DNA of 64,000 nucleotides from Funiculus sociatus GB2-C1 (lineage in GTDB: Bacteria; Cyanobacteriota; Cyanobacteriia; Cyanobacteriales; FACHB-T130): positions 1 through 64,000 of the forward strand of contig NZ_JAMPKJ010000003.1 of assembly GCF_039962115.1 (NCBI RefSeq). The letters run 5' to 3'. This document shows positions 24,859-35,778 of the stretch, piece after piece. Position 1 is the stretch's first letter. Each line of letters starts with the position of its first letter. The notes beneath the pieces were generated by a model. That model searched no databases. It was not told where the DNA came from and saw only the letters and a list, made by a program, of their open reading frames with translations. A program made the position numbers and the translations under genes.

Positions 24859-26775
24859 ATGAAATTTAGGGTAGATCAAGCGCTTAGACGTGGGTGGAAA
24901 TATTGGGATAAGCATCCAGGCGTTGCTTGGACGCTATCGATTCTGTGGGTGCTAGGGGTTTGCTGGCTGGCTTTTGTGTGGAATGTAGGCAGTATCGGTC
25001 TTATCGATGAGACGGAGCCGCTGTTTGCGGAAGCTGCCCGCCAGATGACGGTGACGGGAGATTGGATCACGCCGTTTTTTAATGGTGAGACGCGCTTTGA
25101 TAAGCCGCCGTTGGTGTATTGGCTGATGGCGATCGCTTATAAATCGGTTGGCGTGAATGAATGGGCGGTGCGGCTGCCTTCTGCTTTGAGTGCGATCGCT
25201 GTGACTGGGTTAGCCTTTTACACGTTGCGATACTTTGGGGCTACTTCTGGTGTTGTTGCGACGGGGCAATCTAGCGTTGGCAAACGGACACCTCCCCAGT
25301 TGTGGCTATCGGCACTGCTGGGTGCAGCTTTGATCGCCCTGAATCCTGAAATGATCGTCTGGGGACGAACTGGCGTTTCTGATATGCTGCTGACTGGCTG
25401 TATGGGTTGTGCAATCCTATCCTTTTTTCTTGGTTATGCTCAGCCCTCTCGCCCAGCAATTCAGTCACGTTGGTATCTGGCGTTTTATGTGCTGGTTGCT
25501 TTAGCTATTCTTGCCAAAGGGCCGGTGGGAATTGTGTTGCCAGTGCTAATTATTGGGACTTTTCTACTTTATCTGGGCAATTTCTGGCAAGTTTTACGGG
25601 AGATGCGCCCGATTAGGGGCTTGGCAATTGTCCTGGCTCTAGCAGTGCCTTGGTATGTTTTGGTAATTTGGCGCAATGGGGAAGCCTACATAGATAAGTT
25701 TTTTGGCTATCACAATTTTGAACGCTTCACGGGCGTTGTGAATGACCATTGGGCCCCTTGGTATTTTTATTTTCTGGTGGTGCTGCTTGGTTTTGCGCCT
25801 TGGTCGATTTATTTGCCGATAGCGATCGCGCGACTGCGCTTTTGGAAACGCGATCGCTGGCGTCAACAACCGCGTTCTGCTCAATTGGGTCTATTTGCCC
25901 TATTTTGGTTTGCTGGTATCTTTGGCTTCTTCACAGTTGCAGTGACTAAACTTCCCAGCTATGTGCTGCCCCTGATGCCAGCAGCGGGGATTTTGGTGGC
26001 GCTTTTGTTCAGCGAACAGATGACCTTTGTTAGTCGTCCCTTGTCTGTGGTCACAGAAGAGTCGTCAAGCTTGAACCCTCAAACGTTGGATTCTAACAAC
26101 CTTCCCATCCAACCTTCCCATCCAACCTCAAAGAACAAAGGACTCTTCTGGAGCGGCATTGTCAACGTAGTATTTTTGGCGGTGCTTGCTGGTGGTATTT
26201 TATACAGCCCAAATTTTCTGGGATACGATCCGGCTGTGCCAGATTTGCAGCAACTGGTGCAAAATTCCGGTTTGCCGGTGCGGGGATTTATCATCTGGGG
26301 AGCAGCTGCTGTTTCAGCAGCAGTGCTGTTGTGGCGACGCTGGTGGCGTTGGCTTTGGAGTCCCAATCTGATTGGGTTTATGGCTTTTATAATCTTTGTG
26401 TTGACACCCGCCTACTTCATGATGGATAACGCGCGTCAGTTGCCGTTGCGGGAATTAAGCGCGATCGCGGCTCAAGTTGAGCGGCCTGGGGAACCGATGG
26501 TTATGATTGGCTTCAAAAAGCCTAGCGTAGTATTTTACACCCAGCGTCCGGTAAATTACTTTGCCAAAGCTAGCTCGGCAATGGAATACATTGAAGCGAT
26601 CTCAGCCAGTGAAGCTAAGCCACCTTCGGTACTTATTCTTACCGAGCCTAAATATTTGCAGCAAACAAAGCTTGCGCCTCATCAATACCAAACTCTAGGT
26701 AAAGTTGGTGCTTATCAGCTTATCCGAATCTCGAAACAAATGGTTGCTTGGAGCGAGGCGGCTCGATCCAACTAA
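24859..26775 (+). CDS. GT39-type membrane glycosyltransferase (ArnT/PMT-like)
   Basis: A 638-residue polytopic membrane protein. The first extracytoplasmic loop has the DETEPLFAEAARQM and GETRFDKPPLVYWL motifs diagnostic of the ArnT/PMT glycosyltransferase 39 fold, including the acidic catalytic pair. About a dozen hydrophobic helices follow, then a soluble C-terminal portion (about 530-630). These enzymes transfer a sugar from a polyprenyl-phosphate donor to lipid, protein or polysaccharide outside the membrane. The acceptor here is unknown. The gene stands alone between a secreted-protein gene and convergent coiled-coil genes. The 236 bases before it hold no supported gene. Confidence 0.88.
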   Translation: MKFRVDQALRRGWKYWDKHPGVAWTLSILWVLGVCWLAFVWNVGSIGLIDETEPLFAEAARQMTVTGDWITPFFNGETRFDKPPLVYWLMAIAYKSVGVNEWAVRLPSALSAIAVTGLAFYTLRYFGATSGVVATGQSSVGKRTPPQLWLSALLGAALIALNPEMIVWGRTGVSDMLLTGCMGCAILSFFLGYAQPSRPAIQSRWYLAFYVLVALAILAKGPVGIVLPVLIIGTFLLYLGNFWQVLREMRPIRGLAIVLALAVPWYVLVIWRNGEAYIDKFFGYHNFERFTGVVNDHWAPWYFYFLVVLLGFAPWSIYLPIAIARLRFWKRDRWRQQPRSAQLGLFALFWFAGIFGFFTVAVTKLPSYVLPLMPAAGILVALLFSEQMTFVSRPLSVVTEESSSLNPQTLDSNNLPIQPSHPTSKNKGLFWSGIVNVVFLAVLAGGILYSPNFLGYDPAVPDLQQLVQNSGLPVRGFIIWGAAAVSAAVLLWRRWWRWLWSPNLIGFMAFIIFVLTPAYFMMDNARQLPLRELSAIAAQVERPGEPMVMIGFKKPSVVFYTQRPVNYFAKASSAMEYIEAISASEAKPPSVLILTEPKYLQQTKLAPHQYQTLGKVGAYQLIRISKQMVAWSEAARSN

Positions 26776-26843: not shown

Positions 26844-27920
26844 TCACTTAGTTTTCTGTAAGGTTTTTGCCTGCTCCAGAGTAATCTCTTTCAATGACTG
26901 GAAAGAACTGGCATTTGAGGCACCTTCAATTGCTTTAACAGCCAAATCCTGAACCTGTTTGAGGGCAAAGTCAAGTTGTTTAGAGAGGCTTTGAATTCGT
27001 GCTTCTTGATTACGAATAGTCTCGTCTAAGGATTGAATCTTTTGGTCGTGCAAACGCTTTTGCACTTCCACATCCTTAGCATACAAATCTGCCTTAATCT
27101 TAGTCTGGTGATGAGCAATTCCTTTGCCTTCTTCCTTGGCTTTTTTGATAGCAGCTTCCAATTCTTTCGGAAAAGCTTCTACCTTGGCTTTAGCTTCATC
27201 ATATTGTTTTTCTCGTTCAGCGATCGCTTTCTCTCTCTCAGCCCACTGTTTATCTTTTTCTTGCTGGAACTCTTCTATTTCCTTATACAATCCTTTCTTG
27301 TTTTGGTCGTACTCATCTTGATTGAGTTTGCGTTGCAGTTCTAGCTCATACTTATATTCTTTTTCATCTCGCTGTCGAGTTTTATTCAGCGTCTCATTTC
27401 GTTCTTTAACTAAGCGTTTACGTTCTTCTTGCTCTTTGAACCAAGCGTTTTTTTCCTCCAACGTTTGTTGTTCCAAAGTTTCGCGACTTTGGCTTAGTTC
27501 CTCGCCAAATTCCTTGGCGCTTTCCTCATATTGTTGGATTAGTGTATCCAACATTCCTTCTTCAATTTCTAGAGCGTGCAGCTCTTGTAATTGTGTAACC
27601 TCTGTTTCTACATTACTTCTGAATTCTTGTAATTTAGAAGCTTCTAAGGTGAGTTTTTCCGACAATTCACTGACAGCACCACCAAAGCCTAATTGTAGCT
27701 TTGCGAGGCTTTCAATCACGTTACCCATTTTTTCTTGAGCCGCAGCACCCTGATTCATAGTCGTCCAAGATTCTAATGGTAGTTTATCTTTAATCGCAGG
27801 CGGTTTAGCTTCACTCAGTTGCTTAAGTTGTGACTCTATGGCTGCTTTTTCCTTGTTTAATTCCTCATACGCCGCTAAGATTTCAGCCTTGGTATTTTTA
27901 TCGCTAGGTTTTCTCGCCAT
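26844..27920 (-). CDS. coiled-coil protein, paralog of the neighbouring gene
   Basis: A 358-residue protein that is nearly all heptad coiled coil, rich in Glu, Lys and Gln (for example EAKAKVEAFPKELEAAIKKA). It aligns over its length with the product of the adjacent gene: both start with a K-EIL-A--EL--EK--IES segment and share a GFG/EFG turn followed by T-EASKL and a run of LQEL. No enzyme motif or membrane segment is seen. I chose the ATG at 27920, with GGAG 7 bases upstream; the longer frame translates a heptad repeat (MGTGDWGLG). Function unknown; a structural or filament-forming role is a guess. Confidence 0.7.
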   Translation of the reverse strand: MARKPSDKNTKAEILAAYEELNKEKAAIESQLKQLSEAKPPAIKDKLPLESWTTMNQGAAAQEKMGNVIESLAKLQLGFGGAVSELSEKLTLEASKLQEFRSNVETEVTQLQELHALEIEEGMLDTLIQQYEESAKEFGEELSQSRETLEQQTLEEKNAWFKEQEERKRLVKERNETLNKTRQRDEKEYKYELELQRKLNQDEYDQNKKGLYKEIEEFQQEKDKQWAEREKAIAEREKQYDEAKAKVEAFPKELEAAIKKAKEEGKGIAHHQTKIKADLYAKDVEVQKRLHDQKIQSLDETIRNQEARIQSLSKQLDFALKQVQDLAVKAIEGASNASSFQSLKEITLEQAKTLQKTK

Positions 27921-27942
27921 TGCTAATCTCCTAATTTGTTTT

Positions 27943-27996
27943 TCCCAGTCCCCAATCCCCAATCCCCAGTCCCCAGTCCCCAATCCCTAACCCCTA
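27943..27996. repeat. CCCCAGT/CCCCAAT heptad array
   Basis: About seven heptamers of CCCCAGT, CCCCAAT and CCCTAAC types fill the spacer between the two coiled-coil paralogs. Only the C-rich arm is present, without the unique core seen in the larger elements. It touches the stop codon of the upstream paralog at 27994. Confidence 0.8.
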
Positions 27997-28998
27997 GTTC
28001 TCTCTTTTGGTTGTCAGCTTAGCAGAGGAACTTTCAAAAGCTCTCATGGCGATATCTTGTGCTTGCTTAGAGGCGGCTTGGAGTTGGGCGGTAATTTCTG
28101 TTATCTGTTCCATTTGTCTTTGAATTGTCTGTTCCAGAGATTGAATTTTAAATTCATTACTCTGTTTAGTAGCTTCCCACTCTTTCTCAGACAAATCAGC
28201 TTGCACCTTAGCGTCTTGGTGAACGTCTTTAATAGCTTCTTCTCTGGCTTTTTTAACAGCGTCCTCCAATTCTTTAGGAAATCCGTCTATTTTCTTTTGA
28301 TGCTCTTGAAACTCTGCTTGACGCGCTGTTAGATTATTTTCTCGTTCTAACCATTGTTTTTCTTTTTCTTTCTCAGACGCTTGCAATTCCCGTTCTAGGT
28401 TTCGCTTGATTTCTTCGTACTCATCTGTTTCCAGTTTTCGAGTTCTTTCTAATTCGTATTGATAATCTTCAGTTTCCCGCTGGCGTTCTGCGGTTAATAA
28501 GGCATTTTGTTCTTGGAGTGCAGTTTCGTATTCTTCTTGCTCTTTTTGCCAAGATTTGCGGATTATAGTTTGCTGTTTTTGCAGCGCTTCCCGCTCAATT
28601 GCAGTTTTTTGTTCTAGCGCTTTTAAGTTTTCTTGGTGTTCTTGAGTTAAGATGTGCAGCGCATCTGCTACTATTCTGATTTCTTGAAGTTCTTGTAGGT
28701 GTTGGGTTTCAATTTCTATCGCCCGTTTTAGTTCGTTTAACTTTGATGTCTCTCCTGTTAATTTTGTGGAGAGTCCGGTGACGATGCTGCCAAATTCTAA
28801 TTGCAGGTCTGCTAGACCTTTGACAATACTATCGACGGTATATGTAGACGCAGCTTGGAGAATTTCTTTGTTTTTTTCTTTTTCGGCTTCCTGTTCTTTT
28901 GTCGCTATTTTTGACTCGATTTTTTTCTTTTCTGTTAGAAGCTGCTTGAAGGCTTCAAGAATTTTTTCTTTGCTGTCTCTTGAGGCTATTTTATTCAT
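27994..28998 (-). CDS. coiled-coil protein, upstream paralog of the tandem pair
   Basis: A 334-residue, almost entirely coiled-coil protein (ETQHLQELQEIRIVADALHI, KLETDEYEEIKRNLERELQ). It shares segment order with the downstream paralog: N-terminal KEKILEAFKQLLTEKKKIES, a VDSIVKGLADLQLEFGSIV turn, long Glu/Gln-rich coil, a FPKELEDAVKKAREEA segment and a final short coil. ATG at 28998 is chosen because GGAG lies 7 bases upstream. The pair is probably one transcript that began as a tandem duplication. No function can be assigned. Confidence 0.7.
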   Translation of the reverse strand: MNKIASRDSKEKILEAFKQLLTEKKKIESKIATKEQEAEKEKNKEILQAASTYTVDSIVKGLADLQLEFGSIVTGLSTKLTGETSKLNELKRAIEIETQHLQELQEIRIVADALHILTQEHQENLKALEQKTAIEREALQKQQTIIRKSWQKEQEEYETALQEQNALLTAERQRETEDYQYELERTRKLETDEYEEIKRNLERELQASEKEKEKQWLERENNLTARQAEFQEHQKKIDGFPKELEDAVKKAREEAIKDVHQDAKVQADLSEKEWEATKQSNEFKIQSLEQTIQRQMEQITEITAQLQAASKQAQDIAMRAFESSSAKLTTKREN

Positions 28999-29196
28999 GC
29001 TTTTTCTCCATAACAAAGTTGCTCTGTTGCAGGTGTTCCTACAGCAGAGTGCAGCAATCTGTCCGGGAACGCTGTCCTCTAGTAGAACATTTGTTCTAGT
29101 GCAATATACTCAAGGATTAGCAGTAATGTCAAGGAAAGAAATACGTAGAAGCTGCGTATAAAATTGCTTTAAATTAAAAATCACAGACCTGCGTAA

Positions 29197-29231: not shown

Positions 29232-32200
29232 TTAGAAGCTTGTTTGGGCGAGGGAGGCGTGAATGTGGTCTAGCACTTCTGCCATTGACAGGGGAGGTAC
29301 TGAGAGAATTTTGGTAGCGATCGCTCTCAAGGCTGCCTCAAACTTAATGGTCGCTTCATCCAAATTTCTCCCATCCCAGCGATGATCCAGCACCAAAATG
29401 GGCGGTAGAGCAGGCATCTGCTTCAAGGAGGTCAAAGCTTCCACCAGTGCTGGATAAGGCTTGATGTCCGCCAGATCGATGAGCAGTAAGTCTACGTTTT
29501 GGTGTTGCAGTTGACGGCATACTTCCGCCCAAGAACGCGAGAGTAAACTTTTAAACCCTGCGCTTTCCAGGTAGTGCAGCAGAGGGGAACCATTCGAGCT
29601 GCTAATTTGGGGGCTAGCCACAAATTGGGGGTCAAATGCTTCGCCTGTACGGTCGTAGGGAGAAGTATTTGCGCCTGTATCTATTCTCGATTCCCCAATT
29701 TCTTCGGTGGGGGAGAACACATCGGTGAGACTGCGGGCATCCACAACTAAAATATTTGATTGGCAGCTGATGCCAGCAGCAACTTGAATCACCTGCAATA
29801 AGGCATCCATATTCTCATGGCGATCTGATGCTAAACACGGAAATACGGAAAGACCAGTAACTTGATTTGCCGCTTGAGTAGTCTGGCGGTCTAAGGTTAT
29901 TAAGGGTAAAGAGGCAAGATCAGTTAACGAAAGCTCCTTTAAGTAAGCCAGAGGGTCTTCTAAACCAGCACCATCGAGGATGACGACATTTGGGTGCCAA
30001 ACACGCACCAAAAGTTCTGCCTGCTCTATATCGTCGGCTTCTAGAACTCGGTGCTTTGGCGACAGGCCCAATGCTGTAGGTGAGAATTCTATTGCTGCTT
30101 GCTCCTCAAAGGTAAGATGCAAAATCGTCAGACTGGGGGTAGGAGTTTCAGGTGCTTTTAAGCTAATCAGGCTGTGTCGTAATGCTTCTGTCTGTACTGG
30201 CAGGGTTAAAAAGCCATCTGCGCGGTTGGCCGATGCTTGCTCTTTTTCTCCTTGGCTTGCTGTCACGAGGACTGGGATGTGACGGGTTTGTTCATCTGAT
30301 TTGAGCAGAGTCAAAACGTCCCAACCGGAAAGCAGGGGTAGTAAGGGATTGAGCAGTAAGGCTTGTGGCTGCAACTGGCGTGCTTTTTCGATTGCTTCTG
30401 TACCAGAACGAGCGATCGCATATCGATAGCCCAAACCTGTCAGTTGCTGGGTTAAATCTTCGATGTACTGGGGTACAGCTTCGACAATTAAGATTAACCG
30501 ATTGCTAAATTTTGGATTTTGGGCTTTGGATTTTTGTTTATTAGAAATTGGGGGTTGGGAATAATCTTGCTCAGTCCCCAGCTTTTTAGAATTGGGTGGT
30601 GGAACAGGAGGTAGTAGCAGGGTAAACTGGCTTCCCTGACCAACTTTGGAGATAAACGAAATATCTCCGCCGTGCAGGTGAGCAAGGCGTTGGGTTAAAG
30701 CCAGTCCCAGACCTGTACCATCAAATCTGCGGGTGAGGGTATCTTCCAACTGTTGAAATTTCTGAAAGATTAAATGCTGTTTTGCTTCGGGGATGCCAAT
30801 GCCAGTATCCCAGATAGTAAAAGCAATCCAGCCTTCCCAACAAGCTACTTTCAGACCGATTGCGCCTCCAGATTCGGTAAATTTGAGGGCGTTGGAAAGC
30901 AGGTGAGTTAGCATCTGGCGCAGGCGCAATTCGTCTGCCACCATTGTTTCTAATTCGGGTTCTATGCTGAGTGTGAAGCTGATTTCTTCTTGTTCAAGAT
31001 CAGTTTCCAATGGTTCTTTACCTGGCTGGAGTTGTCGCGCTTGAGCAATGGCGCGATCGCATACTGTGGGAATATGCACTGGCTCTGGTGTCAGTTCCAG
31101 CTGCCCTGTCTCCATCCGGGTCAAATCTAAAATATCATTGACTACCGTCATCAACTGCCGCCCACTCTGATGAATCAGTCGTGCATAACGTGCCTGACGT
31201 TCATTCAGCTGCCCGATTAACTGATCTTTGAGCAAGCTGGCTAAACCTAGTACGCTCGTCAGGGGGGTTTTGAGTTCGTGGCTGATACAGGCTAAAAACT
31301 CATCCTTCATCCGGTTGAGTTGGACTAAATCGGCATTTTTAGCTGCTAATTCCTTGGCGAAGATGTGCTGCTCTGTTACGTCGGTTGCCATCACCAGCGA
31401 GAGGTCAGGGCTGAGCGAATGCAGGGGCGTTGTAGCGTTGTAGTTTTGTAGGTGTTCCCACTCCGATACTCGGATGCTCTTCTCCTCTACGTTAGTGCTG
31501 TTTTGGCGCAGGGGAATTGTGACAAATTGCCAGAGGCGATCACCTATCTTTTTTGTAGTTGGATTTCGCGTCACCGCCTCCCTAGAGGCCGTTTCCCTAG
31601 AGGCAATGGTTGCTTCTGTCGCTGATATTTGATGGTGATTTGTCTCGTCGGCACCTTCCCACCAATTTACAAATTCTGCTGCGGTACCCCTAGAACTTAC
31701 GCCCACTAACTCCTGTTGCCACAAGGAATCTATTAAGACAGGTGCTTCAGGCTCTTCTAGGTGAGGGTCAAGACTTTCTCCTATCTGCTGTCTCCAGGTC
31801 AGATTCTGGGCGATAATTTGCCCAGTTATCGTTTGCAACCTCAAGGGCAAAGGCAGTTGTTCCAAGAGTTGAACTAGGGACTCTTTGGTACAGGCAGTAG
31901 GGGAAGTAGATTCCAATTCTCCTGCGTTCCAATTCTCCTGAGTTCCTTTGCTCCTGGGTTCCTGGGTTCCTCGGCTCCTTTGCTCCATTTCCCCTGGAAT
32001 TTCTTCTATCGTTGCCAGAAATTTCACCAGACGTTGGCTATCCAACAAACCTAAGAATTTATCTGAGGGATCGACTACAGCCCAGTGTGGGAGATGTGTT
32101 TGGGAATTAGAAGAACGCAAATACAGCCAGAATTGGCTTAAAGAAATCCAAGCAGGCAAGGTTGCCACTTTTTCAATCAGCGGCAAATCCAGTTCGCACA

Positions 32201-32453
32201 GGGGTTGCTGCAAATCTATTGCTACCCCCGCAATTAGGTAATCTTGCTTCTTAAACTGGTTTTTTACGATCAGATGAGGCATAATTGCCCGGAGGTTTAC
32301 TACTCCTAGCGGGTGTTGTTGTTCGCTCACCACCACCACGCGATCGCAACCGCCAGAGCGAAAAATCTCTAAAAGAGATGCGAAGGCAGCTGTTTGTTCG
32401 CAAACAGGAACTCGTTCAATAAATTCCTTTAGACTGGGATTGGTAATGAACAT
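29232..32453 (-). CDS. CBS-containing hybrid histidine kinase with three degenerate receivers
   Basis: A 1073-residue cytoplasmic sensor kinase. Two CBS-like units (about 10-75 and 90-150), which usually bind adenine nucleotides, are followed by a PAS-like region (about 190-360) and HisKA with His392 (ACISHELKTPL). The ATPase has LLSNALKF, DTGIGIP and GTGLGLAL. Three receiver-like folds end the protein (about 640-760, 770-895 and 905-1065). The first has Asn at the acceptor position (LLLNPLLPLLSGWD). None has the conserved KP lysine. They are therefore likely protein-binding pseudo-receivers. Residues 156-179 come from an in-frame repeat. It is divergent from kaiA with 329 bases between, making a clock-linked role plausible but unproven. 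Confidence 0.85.
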   Translation of the reverse strand: MFITNPSLKEFIERVPVCEQTAAFASLLEIFRSGGCDRVVVVSEQQHPLGVVNLRAIMPHLIVKNQFKKQDYLIAGVAIDLQQPLCELDLPLIEKVATLPAWISLSQFWLYLRSSNSQTHLPHWAVVDPSDKFLGLLDSQRLVKFLATIEEIPGEMEQRSRGTQEPRSKGTQENWNAGELESTSPTACTKESLVQLLEQLPLPLRLQTITGQIIAQNLTWRQQIGESLDPHLEEPEAPVLIDSLWQQELVGVSSRGTAAEFVNWWEGADETNHHQISATEATIASRETASREAVTRNPTTKKIGDRLWQFVTIPLRQNSTNVEEKSIRVSEWEHLQNYNATTPLHSLSPDLSLVMATDVTEQHIFAKELAAKNADLVQLNRMKDEFLACISHELKTPLTSVLGLASLLKDQLIGQLNERQARYARLIHQSGRQLMTVVNDILDLTRMETGQLELTPEPVHIPTVCDRAIAQARQLQPGKEPLETDLEQEEISFTLSIEPELETMVADELRLRQMLTHLLSNALKFTESGGAIGLKVACWEGWIAFTIWDTGIGIPEAKQHLIFQKFQQLEDTLTRRFDGTGLGLALTQRLAHLHGGDISFISKVGQGSQFTLLLPPVPPPNSKKLGTEQDYSQPPISNKQKSKAQNPKFSNRLILIVEAVPQYIEDLTQQLTGLGYRYAIARSGTEAIEKARQLQPQALLLNPLLPLLSGWDVLTLLKSDEQTRHIPVLVTASQGEKEQASANRADGFLTLPVQTEALRHSLISLKAPETPTPSLTILHLTFEEQAAIEFSPTALGLSPKHRVLEADDIEQAELLVRVWHPNVVILDGAGLEDPLAYLKELSLTDLASLPLITLDRQTTQAANQVTGLSVFPCLASDRHENMDALLQVIQVAAGISCQSNILVVDARSLTDVFSPTEEIGESRIDTGANTSPYDRTGEAFDPQFVASPQISSSNGSPLLHYLESAGFKSLLSRSWAEVCRQLQHQNVDLLLIDLADIKPYPALVEALTSLKQMPALPPILVLDHRWDGRNLDEATIKFEAALRAIATKILSVPPLSMAEVLDHIHASLAQTSF
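31919..31988. repeat. heptad-like repeat read in frame by the hybrid kinase
   Basis: On the minus strand, units such as GGAGCAA, AGGAGCC, AGGAACCC and AGGAACTC follow at about 7-base spacing. They encode the linker with RSRGTQEPRSKGTQENW between the CBS and PAS-like regions. The sequence resembles intergenic STRR arrays rather than a conserved domain. Confidence 0.6.
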
Positions 32454-32782
32454 GACAAACCTGGCTCTTGGGAGAGTGACTTCTGCGCGGACGTACTTCC
32501 TTGGCTTCTCGGTAGGGGTTTCTCCTGCCTTCTGCCAAAAAAAGTTGGGTTTAAAAAAAAACTGGCGATCGCGCAGTTTCTTATGGAATATGAAAGTAGA
32601 GGTTCTGCTTAATTATTGCTCCATCCAGGCGACTCTCAGATACTCCTACTTACAATTAATTACAATTCGATTAATGTTTAAATTATTATTAAGTAGTTTT
32701 TGAACGATTCCGGTGAGAAATCCTCCTCGTGAAGGATGTCTCAATGGAAACACTGAATTAATTTATTACACTGACTAAGGTT
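32454..32782. promoter_or_regulatory. divergent control region between hybrid kinase and kaiA
   Basis: A 329-base gene-free stretch. The right half is AT-rich (32640-32700, with repeated AATTA and ATTAAT) and could hold the kaiA promoter. I see no unambiguous promoter hexamers or clock-box element. An in-frame stop at 32759 limits any upstream extension of kaiA. Confidence 0.4.
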
Positions 32783-33700
32783 TTGGATTCACCCCTGTCT
32801 ATTTGTACGTTTGTTTCTAATGAATCGCTGGCTAAGTCCGTGAGGGACGATTTGAGCAGCGATCACTATCTTGTAACTCAGGCGAGTTCCTTATCTGAGT
32901 TTTTTGCCGAAATCGAGCAACACAAGCAGGAGATCGATTGTTTGGTTTTACAGGAGGAAGGCGAGTTGCTACCCCTGTTTAACCAATTGTACGAACAAGG
33001 CACTCTGCTGCCAATTGTAATTTTCAAAAAGGTAACGCATGAACTCAGTAATTATGCGGTGATTACAGATAAGCCGAGTAACGTAAGTAGCGTCGCTGAT
33101 GCTAACCAATCGTTGGGGACTTATCTGTACCACGCTGCGGAAGTTCATGTAACCGCAAGCCAAGCCAACAAGATGACGCTGTTGATTGATCAAGCGATCG
33201 CTCGATTCCTCACCCTAGCACCCAGCTGTCGTCTCCCTGACCTTTCCGCCAACCTCGATCCCGTTACTGAGCTAAATACTCAAAGTTTCCTAATGCTACA
33301 GCAGCGTCGGCTAGCTGAAAAACTTCAGGAACGATTAGGGTATTTAGGCGTGTACTACAAGAGAAATTCCCAGGCTTTTTTCCGTCATCTATCGCGAACT
33401 GAAAGGCAAGAAATTTTAAACCAACTCAAAGCTGAATATCGCCAGATTGTCATAAATTACTTCTCCAAAGAGAGTACACTGAATCAAGCCATCGATCAAT
33501 TTGTCACAGTGGCTTTTTTTGCCGATATGTCCGTGTCTCAAATTGTCGAGATTCACATGGAATTAATGGATGAATTCTCCAAATACTTGCAACTAGAAGG
33601 GCGGAGCGAAGAAATATTATTAGACTATCGTCTGACCTTGATTGATGTCATTGCTCATCTGTGCGAAATGTATCGCCGTTCCATTCCCAGAGAGTCCTAA
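32783..33700 (+). CDS. kaiA: circadian clock protein KaiA, full length
   Basis: A 305-residue KaiA, the activator of KaiC autophosphorylation. The N-terminal pseudo-receiver domain (about 1-150, SPLSICTFVSNESLAKSV) lacks the phospho-acceptor, as in the family. The C-terminal four-helix domain (about 190-300) contains LAEKLQERLGYLGVYYKRN and HMELMDEFSKYLQLEGRSEE, which dimerises and binds the KaiC tail. It is the long form, unlike the shortened KaiA of some Nostoc species. The start is TTG; an in-frame stop 24 bases upstream leaves no ATG alternative near the family N-terminus. First gene of kaiA-kaiB-kaiC. Confidence 0.95.
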   Translation: MDSPLSICTFVSNESLAKSVRDDLSSDHYLVTQASSLSEFFAEIEQHKQEIDCLVLQEEGELLPLFNQLYEQGTLLPIVIFKKVTHELSNYAVITDKPSNVSSVADANQSLGTYLYHAAEVHVTASQANKMTLLIDQAIARFLTLAPSCRLPDLSANLDPVTELNTQSFLMLQQRRLAEKLQERLGYLGVYYKRNSQAFFRHLSRTERQEILNQLKAEYRQIVINYFSKESTLNQAIDQFVTVAFFADMSVSQIVEIHMELMDEFSKYLQLEGRSEEILLDYRLTLIDVIAHLCEMYRRSIPRES

Positions 33701-33775: not shown

Positions 33776-34090
33776 ATGGCCGCCCTGAAAAAAACCTATG
33801 TTCTTAAGCTCTACGTTGCTGGAAACACTCCCAACTCAGTACGGGCTTTAAAAACACTCAAAAATATCTTGGAACAAGAGTTCCAGGGTGTCTATGCCCT
33901 GAAAGTGATTGATGTTCTCAAAAATCCCCAACTGGCTGAAGAAGATAAAATTTTAGCCACGCCGACTTTGGCAAAAGTATTACCTCCACCAGTCCGCAGA
34001 ATCATCGGGGATCTTTCGGATAGAGAAAAGGTATTAGTCGGATTGGATCTTCTCTATGAAGAACTCAGCCAAGCCGAATCAGATTTATAA
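33776..34090 (+). CDS. kaiB: circadian clock protein KaiB
   Basis: A 104-residue KaiB, which switches to a thioredoxin-like fold, binds the KaiC CI ring and sequesters KaiA during dephosphorylation. Landmarks are [40 protein letters not shown] and [20 protein letters not shown], with a short acidic tail. Length and sequence are standard. It is 75 bases after kaiA and about 120 bases before kaiC. Confidence 0.98.
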
Positions 34091-34212
34091 ATTATATTCG
34101 GGTGTATTAGTAATAAACCCTTACAACCAGAGATACTTACGCCTTTAAACTTTAGACTGGTCTATAGCCCTTACTCAGTTTCTGCTAATCTCTTATTTTT
34201 TTGACTCAAGTG

Positions 34213-35778
34213 ATGAATCAAACTAATCCAAGCGAGCATAAAGACGAATTGGCACCGCTAGGAGTCCAAAAAATTCGCACAATGATTGAAGGTTTCGATG
34301 ACATTAGTCATGGAGGCTTACCACTGGGGAGAACCACCTTATTCAGTGGCACATCCGGAACTGGTAAAACCTTGTTTGCAGTTCAGTTTCTCTACAACGG
34401 TATTACTCAGTTTGATGAGTCTGGCGTATTTGTTACTTTTGAAGAATCTCCTACAGATATCATAAAAAATGCCTCCAGCTTTGGTTGGGATTTGCAGAAA
34501 TTCATAGATCAAGGCCAGCTATTTATTCTGGATGCTTCTCCCGATCCTGAAGGACAGGAAGTTGTCGGTAACTTTGACCTGTCTGCCTTAATTGAGCGCA
34601 TTCAGTATGCCATTCGTAAATATAAAGCCAAGCGGGTTTCCGTTGACTCTGTAACAGCTATTTTTCAGCAATATGATGCCGCAGGGCTAGTACGACGGGA
34701 AATTTTTAGATTGGTAGCCCGCCTCAAACAAATTGGTGTCACCACCATAATGACGACAGAAAGGATTGAGGAATATGGCCAAGTGGCGCGATTTGGGGTA
34801 GAAGAATTTGTTTCTGATAACGTGGCCATTGTTCGCAACGTTTTGGAAGGAGAACGTCGCCGCCGCACCATTGAAATTCTTAAACTTCGCGGTACTACCC
34901 ATATGAAAGGCGAATACCCTTTCACCATTACCAATAATGGAATCAATATCTTCCCACTAGGAGCCATGCGACTCACCCAGCGTTCTTCCAATATTCGGGT
35001 GTCTTCTGGTGTCAAAACCCTCGATGAAATGTGTGGTGGTGGATTCTTCAAAGATTCGATTATTTTGGCAACAGGTGCTACAGGTACAGGAAAAACGCTT
35101 TTAGTAAGCAAATTTTTGGAAAATGCCTGCCTCAGGGACGAACGTGCCATCTTGTTTGCCTATGAAGAATCTCGCGCCCAACTTTCTCGCAATGCTTATT
35201 CCTGGGGCATTGATTTTGAGGAGATGGAGCAAAAAGGGTTGCTAAAAATTCTCTGTACTTATCCAGAGTCGGCTGGGTTAGAAGACCATTTGCAAATTAT
35301 TAAATCAGAAATTGCTGAATTTAAGCCGTGTCGCATTGCCATTGATTCCCTATCTGCTTTAGCACGCGGCGTTAGCAGTAATGCCTTCCGGCAGTTTGTA
35401 ATTGGCGTTACTGGTTATGCCAAGCAAGAGGAAATTACTGGCTTTTTTACCAACACAACTGACCAATTTATGGGTTCCCATTCGATTACGGATTCCCATA
35501 TTTCCACGATTACAGACACGATTTTGATGCTGCAATATGTGGAAATTCGCGGTGAAATGTCCCGTGCTATCAATGTTTTCAAGATGCGGGGTTCTTGGCA
35601 CGAAAAAGGTATCCGCGAGTACACTATCACTGATGAGGGAGCTGAAATTAAAGATTCTTTCCGTAATTATGAAAGAATTATCAGTGGCTCACCCACTCGG
35701 ATTGCAGTTGACGAAAAGAGCGAATTATCCCGCATTGTTCGAGGGATGAGGGACAATAGTAGCGATACGGTAATTTAA
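34213..35778 (+). CDS. kaiC: circadian clock ATPase/kinase KaiC
   Basis: A 521-residue double-domain RecA-like ATPase forming the hexameric clock core. CI: Walker A GTSGTGKT (46-53) and catalytic Glu77-Glu78 (TFEES). CII: Walker A GATGTGKT (288-295). The phosphorylation sites Ser431 and Thr432 lie in DSHISTITDT, exactly at the Synechococcus elongatus numbers when the ATG at 34213 is used. That is why I prefer it to the TTG at 34201. The C-terminal A-loop and tail that bind KaiA are present (about 485-521). Third gene of kaiABC. Confidence 0.98.
   Translation: MNQTNPSEHKDELAPLGVQKIRTMIEGFDDISHGGLPLGRTTLFSGTSGTGKTLFAVQFLYNGITQFDESGVFVTFEESPTDIIKNASSFGWDLQKFIDQGQLFILDASPDPEGQEVVGNFDLSALIERIQYAIRKYKAKRVSVDSVTAIFQQYDAAGLVRREIFRLVARLKQIGVTTIMTTERIEEYGQVARFGVEEFVSDNVAIVRNVLEGERRRRTIEILKLRGTTHMKGEYPFTITNNGINIFPLGAMRLTQRSSNIRVSSGVKTLDEMCGGGFFKDSIILATGATGTGKTLLVSKFLENACLRDERAILFAYEESRAQLSRNAYSWGIDFEEMEQKGLLKILCTYPESAGLEDHLQIIKSEIAEFKPCRIAIDSLSALARGVSSNAFRQFVIGVTGYAKQEEITGFFTNTTDQFMGSHSITDSHISTITDTILMLQYVEIRGEMSRAINVFKMRGSWHEKGIREYTITDEGAEIKDSFRNYERIISGSPTRIAVDEKSELSRIVRGMRDNSSDTVI

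Follow-up and report, generated by a model that had tools for sequence, protein, structure and literature searches.

What is a large sensor kinase doing back to back with the clock genes kaiABC, and is it part of the clock? The question is raised by the window studied here, i.e., the 64,000 nucleotides at positions 1 to 64,000 of contig NZ_JAMPKJ010000003.1 of the cyanobacterium Funiculus sociatus GB2-C1. At 29232-32453, on the minus strand, it holds a gene for a protein of 1073 amino acids (aa) with two CBS repeats, a PAS-like stretch, HisKA, HATPase, and three pseudo-receivers. The original prediction, made from the letters alone, had reported this open reading frame without naming its strand, and had placed it divergent from kaiABC. 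Both points hold, since kaiA (32783-33700; Pfam KaiA and KaiA_N), kaiB (33776-34090; Pfam), and kaiC (34201-35778; Pfam) are all on the plus strand, and 329 bases (32454-32782) separate the kinase from kaiA. Judged from its sequence and its neighborhood, we regard the kinase as a strong candidate for a missing clock part, and it may represent an input or output component for filamentous and many unicellular cyanobacteria.

Linkage of the kinase gene to kaiA

A phylum sample of 386 genomes was searched for kaiA and, with a 45-row profile, for R2, the second and family-specific pseudo-receiver of the kinase. We found a kaiA match in 159 genomes and one strong R2 copy in each of 103 (82 to 164 bits, the next match scoring 46 bits). 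In 91 of these 103, kaiA lies 2.2 to 5.6 kb from the gene on one contig, in divergent orientation, and G091, G298, and G097 (contig begins inside the kinase) raise the divergent total to 94, which represents 54 genera and 22 families. The arrangement relative to kaiA is unassigned in G207 (contig edge) and in G326, where the gene stands beside a kaiC fragment. The original prediction had proposed the conservation of this linkage in filamentous genomes as its own check; the linkage is conserved, and beyond filamentous-type genomes too. A separate scan of named genomes, done with a single protein and poor peptide patterns, yielded seven loci, six of which (Trichocoleus, Rivularia, two Richelia, one Calothrix, and Plectonema) have kaiABC divergent from the gene, the seventh, from a second Calothrix, being cut at the gene.

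As a control for general synteny, all open reading frames of at least 90 aa were clustered in 121 kaiA neighborhoods (that of the window and 120 others retrieved on the basis of kaiA only), leaving out of the ranking the frames that overlap kai genes on the opposite strand. After KaiA, KaiB, and KaiC, the kinase came first, with 87 loci in 52 genera and 22 families, ahead of the next real neighbor, a PMT_2-type membrane protein with 42 loci in 28 genera and 10 families. These stretches extended only ~1.5 kb past kaiC, and an extra 9 kb downstream was therefore analyzed in the window and 51 other genomes, a single representative of each genus, chosen for carrying the kinase, so that the count of 52 genera for the kinase in this set holds by construction. 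Here, the upstream PMT_2-type gene was present in 26 genera and 9 families, and no gene beyond kaiC was common to more than one family (maximum, 21 genera).

Two genomes deserve mention in their own right. The near-complete genome G255 (locus L175) has kaiC and a member of the kinase family, the latter far from kaiC, and no kaiA match; it could possibly run a KaiA-less clock. In the small 2.8-Mb genome G147, the linked gene (C1:539351-539590) contains internal stops and stands beside an intact kaiA.

Pseudo-receivers and decay of the ATPase

The kinase core is intact in the window protein, as had been predicted. Both HisKA/DHp (aa 382-450, 31104-31310; this and all following domain coordinates are on the minus strand) and HATPase_c (aa 507-616, 30606-30935) were detected above cut-off by Pfam, with the phospho-accepting His392 and the ATP-binding N, G1, and G2 boxes in place; across the family, the His is kept in 86/86 aligned rows. 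Behind this core, the prediction had seen three receiver-like folds lacking the KP lysine, one with Asn for the acceptor Asp, and our site counts agree: (i) R1 (aa 654-761, 30171-30494), a Pfam receiver above cut-off, has Asn at the acceptor position in 74/88 aligned rows and Asp in 4, while its KP-lysine position reads Leu then Pro in 64/88 rows and Lys in 3, all of family f29; (ii) R2 (aa 768-900, 29754-30152) lacks the acid pair in all listed rows, the commonest of which read Leu plus Val, His, Ile, Gly, Ser, or Thr there, and its lysine position is occupied by Phe or Tyr in 83/86 rows, but the acceptor-position Asp is retained in 72/86 and the Thr in 79/86; and (iii) R3 (aa 900-1070, 29244-29756), delineated from the alignment and low-confidence secondary structure, was found in 59/86 rows, with the lysine missing and an acceptor position that is mostly Cys, and Asp in the window protein.

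Neither R2 nor R3 is visible to Pfam in the window protein, and 7 of 45 R2 rows matched Response_reg weakly. Support for R2 comes from its profile, from structure prediction, and from fold search. Predicted alone with AlphaFold, it adopts a receiver fold without helix 1 (predicted local distance difference test [pLDDT] score, 84.5; predicted template modeling score, 0.81), the helix-1 region spanning 10 to 55 residues. The best matches of this model in the PDB are receivers (top row, Z score of 12.0 and root mean square deviation of 2.9 over 120 residues); since the PDB matches listed are all receivers, the fold search does not discriminate between the pseudo-receivers of KaiA and CikA as closer relatives of R2. 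No receiver of the protein combines the acid pair, the acceptor Asp, the Thr/Ser, and the Lys of a working hybrid-kinase receiver, and from these residues, R1 to R3 are predicted to be unfit for phosphorylation and for a normal phosphorelay.

The ATPase has decayed in part of the family. N- and/or G-box residues are missing from 7/86 rows in families f4, f12, f25, and f27. Three of these rows come from Thermosynechococcus (one genome assigned via its KaiA match, the others because they carry its genus label); a fourth comes from another genus in that family, and f27, f4, and f12 contribute a single genus apiece. In two of the seven (L100 and L111), Pfam detected no HATPase at E ≤ 0.1. The phosphatase motif of histidine kinases comprises a Glu after the His and a Thr or Asn four residues after the His; by this motif, the seven decayed rows keep the His in 7/7, the Glu in 6/7, and the Thr/Asn in 6/7. 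Compared with the window protein, R2 is more similar than HATPase in six of the seven and tied with it in L068; in all 17 families without decayed members, HATPase is the closer of the two.

Selection on the decayed form was followed through the ratio of nonsynonymous to synonymous substitution rates (dN/dS). In three Thermosynechococcus pairs, dN/dS was 0.015 to 0.037 for HisKA, 0.09 to 0.13 for R1, 0.09 to 0.16 for R2, 0.12 to 0.19 for HATPase, and 0.17 to 0.23 for the N terminus; in four pairs with an intact ATPase, drawn from two other families, the ATPase gave 0 to 0.10 and R2 gave 0.03 to 0.06. Compared with the intact pairs, constraint in Thermosynechococcus is thus looser on the ATPase and on R2, and the protein is still maintained: the ATPase-dead form is under purifying selection in Thermosynechococcus. 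As f4 and f27 each hold another, ATPase-intact genus, and as L049 groups with the intact L040 in the KaiC tree (built without L100 and L106), the ATPase was probably lost three or four times, although in the kinase tree L049 instead joins L100 on long branches close to f25. Coevolution of the kinase with KaiC was also considered, and the tree correlation (0.64 with 52 tips; 0.70 with 46 tips, ATPase-dead members excluded) was set aside as too confounded.

At the N terminus, the original prediction had counted two CBS units. Repeat 1 (aa 8-62, 32268-32432) is borne out by Pfam, falling below cut-off in the whole-protein scan (aa 14-58) and passing it, at 24.6 bits versus 24, when the N terminus is scanned alone; PF00571 matches 44 of 52 N termini taken one per genus. 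Repeat 2 (aa 80-150, 32004-32216) is suggested by the alignment pattern and the secondary structure of a weak model, namely, a full-length AlphaFold prediction (8 sequences; mean pLDDT, 39.6) of which the secondary structure alone was used. The following PAS-like sensor stretch (aa 190-362, 31368-31886), for which Pfam reported nothing in the window protein, is likewise proposed from the conserved pattern of the alignment. Adenosine-binding CBS domains carry the motif G-h-h-T/S-x-x-D, whose Asp contacts the ribose. In both repeats, Asp ranks outside the six most frequent residues where this motif would contact the ribose, and the adenylate sensing that had been suggested for the CBS units finds no support in the ribose-binding motif. 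Two cysteines stand out in the alignment, Cys18 (32400-32402), conserved in at least 90% of the 52 N termini, and Cys873 (29835-29837), conserved in 72/86 R2 domains; they are possible candidates for a redox role.

A gated switch and its rivals

We propose a model in which the protein acts as a clock-associated two-component sensor, where contact with the Kai proteins gates the action of DHp on a response regulator encoded elsewhere, and we would give this model an even chance of being correct. The CBS pair and the PAS-like stretch would sense a cellular signal, and R1 to R3 would mediate contacts with other proteins, with R2 as the domain specific to the family. Contact with a component of the Kai cycle (KaiB or KaiC being the likeliest) would then set the state of the DHp helices, and DHp would phosphorylate or, with greater probability, dephosphorylate the response regulator, for which RpaA is the obvious candidate. 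The Kai contact, the regulator, the phosphatase bias, and the input signal are all steps that we infer. KaiB, KaiC, or an output regulator is favored over KaiA as the partner because one genome, G255, keeps the gene and kaiC without a kaiA match, so that KaiA may be a nonessential partner. Moreover, because DHp and R2 are kept while the ATPase is lost in some lineages, a gated phosphatase or scaffold fits better than a phosphate donor. The job retained probably differs from that of an ordinary kinase, and since four families include members with a decayed ATPase, the very name kinase may be a misnomer for the conserved function.

A bolder version of this model, tentative and on balance doubtful, would make the protein an old cyanobacterial regulator and a third pseudo-receiver clock protein besides KaiA and CikA, with R2 docking on the KaiB-KaiC night complex and the whole acting as an ATPase-independent allosteric phosphatase or scaffold absent from the Synechococcus elongatus lineage and from marine picocyanobacteria. 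The ATPase-dead member of Thermosynechococcus is encoded beside kaiA, and solved structures match the KaiA protein there, which makes an in vitro test feasible.

Several observations weigh against a clock role so conceived. Linkage alone is no proof of common function; 42 of the 94 linked genomes belong to one family, f6; and 7 of the 103 copies are unlinked (G105, G203, G123, G111, G262, G157, and G255, the last without kaiA). No strong R2 match exists in 57 of the 159 kaiA genomes, so that the clock can run without the kinase. Within the protein, the phosphatase-motif Thr/Asn position is Ser in 14/86 rows, and R2 is poorly kept in f29 (28% to the window protein in L106), the family whose R1 has the KP lysine. 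Finally, L050 (f15), counted as intact and outside the seven decayed rows, has His for the G1 Asp, and the number of independent ATPase losses is uncertain, the kinase tree joining some ATPase-dead members.

Among the alternatives, the one that survives best supposes that the protein has no timekeeping role and that the pair is held together by a divergent promoter region that neither gene can lose. We consider it unlikely, even though the orientation and the short gap in the window suit it and unlinked copies in some genomes of four genera indicate that the gene can work without its neighborhood. The two open frames lie anywhere from 71 to more than 1000 bases apart (3054 in L143), and across 86 intergenic loci, four site patterns (CRP, NtcA, LexA, and HLR1-like) were in no clear excess over shuffled sequences, the NtcA pattern occurring in 21 loci where shuffling gave 16 on average and 21 at most. 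Moreover, genomes without the kinase show that the kaiA promoter tolerates change, since the genes upstream of kaiA vary by lineage there. Families f26, f28, and f22 are absent among the 110 genomes matched by the R2 profile, and the kinase is missing from all fetched kaiA loci of f26 (5/5), which probably corresponds to marine picocyanobacteria, and of f28 (2/2); f22 consists of one genome, and 1r8j, from S. elongatus, is the structure that its KaiA matches best. Genes for ribosomal proteins L21 and L27, together with truB, lie upstream of kaiA in some f26 loci and in f22, and other genes do so in the remaining kinase-less loci. A different histidine kinase is tail to tail with kaiC in 4/5 f26 loci (L116:11362-13374 on the minus strand, L113, L115, and L117); one of these, when scanned, was NblS, just above the NCBIfam cut-off.

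It is improbable, too, that the kinase regulates transcription of kaiA and kaiBC through a response regulator acting on the adjoining promoters without touching any Kai protein. Two-component genes often adjoin their targets, and the invariant phospho-accepting His agrees with such a role, but no conserved response regulator was seen in the locus, the 8 representatives scanned from the commoner neighbor clusters including no receiver or regulator match (4 had no Pfam match), ATPase-dead forms fit a phosphate donor poorly, and G255 keeps the gene far from kaiC in a genome without kaiA. Far less credible is a standard hybrid histidine kinase that relays phosphate internally through one of its receivers: the acceptor-position Asp of R2, and of R3 in the window, would allow it, but R2 has neither acid pair nor lysine, R1 has mostly Asn and R3 mostly Cys, and members of four families have lost the ATP site. 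Mere inertia of an old neighborhood, with a linkage devoid of meaning, is equally hard to credit, since the PMT_2-type gene does show that some synteny lasts, but the kinase spreads far above it and any other neighbor in the same loci, and beyond kaiC nothing is common outside one family.

As for the other neighbors in the window, the PMT_2-type membrane protein is encoded at 24859-26775 on the plus strand, and a relative of it (L096:338-2404) matches PF13231. Directly downstream of the kinase and on the same strand (26844-29016, minus), two tandem genes encode coiled-coil-like proteins of 379 and 340 aa, neither of which has a blastp hit in the remaining 120 kaiA loci or passes a Pfam cut-off.

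Comparison with known clock and sensor kinases

The gene presumably bears the locus tags all2883 and tll0480. PMC2633013 tabulates all2883 among the predicted members of the CRP regulon. The linkage of the kinase to kaiA was described in none of the titles, abstract openings, or passages covered by the literature search, those of PMC11372060 and PMC8400943 included, a weak negative as most subscription papers lay outside the library. S. elongatus is presented as the primary bacterial clock model in PMC12691664. The one S. elongatus-like genome in our sample has a KaiA match and no R2 match, and because it lacks the family, the gene most often found beside kaiABC elsewhere may have been overlooked. 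If the protein were indeed a third pseudo-receiver clock protein, its absence from the S. elongatus lineage would explain why the textbook clock does not include it.

The original prediction had set the protein apart from both SasA and CikA, and the comparison upholds this. SasA carries a KaiB-like N-terminal domain. The new kinase shares with it the association of a histidine kinase with KaiABC, but has no KaiB-like domain by Pfam; a 409-aa open reading frame elsewhere in the genome does have one. A third KaiB-domain match, besides kaiB and this SasA-like gene, was observed in a 252-aa open frame (L168; G000 C19:10799-11038). In Rhodobacter sphaeroides, a histidine kinase encoded with kaiBC has been proposed as a redox input, as cited in PMC5520375. 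Both kinases are encoded in a kai locus, in an operon with kaiBC there and divergent from kaiA here, and the comparison of the two concerns genomic position. By domains, the best NCBIfam match is the HrmK type (NF038297), which covers the core and R1 (aa 362-758) at 286 bits, far under its curated cut-off of 725 bits, and leaves the N terminus, R2, and R3 uncovered.

CikA, which binds fold-switched KaiB and dephosphorylates RpaA, is a parallel in design. No CikA could be assigned in the window genome from GAF positions and four fetched stretches. Like CikA, which is described in PMC12691664 and PMC12265555, the new kinase has HisKA and HATPase followed by a pseudo-receiver, its own clock link being hypothetical. 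Their architectures differ: the new kinase has a CBS pair and a PAS-like stretch where CikA has GAF, and no GAF was found in it at E ≤ 0.1 by Pfam; it has two or three pseudo-receivers, CikA having a single C-terminal one; and it is encoded beside kaiABC and has lost its ATPase in some lineages. With these differences in mind, a CikA-like, pseudo-receiver-gated switch acting on a separate response regulator is the description that, by analogy, would fit the new kinase best.

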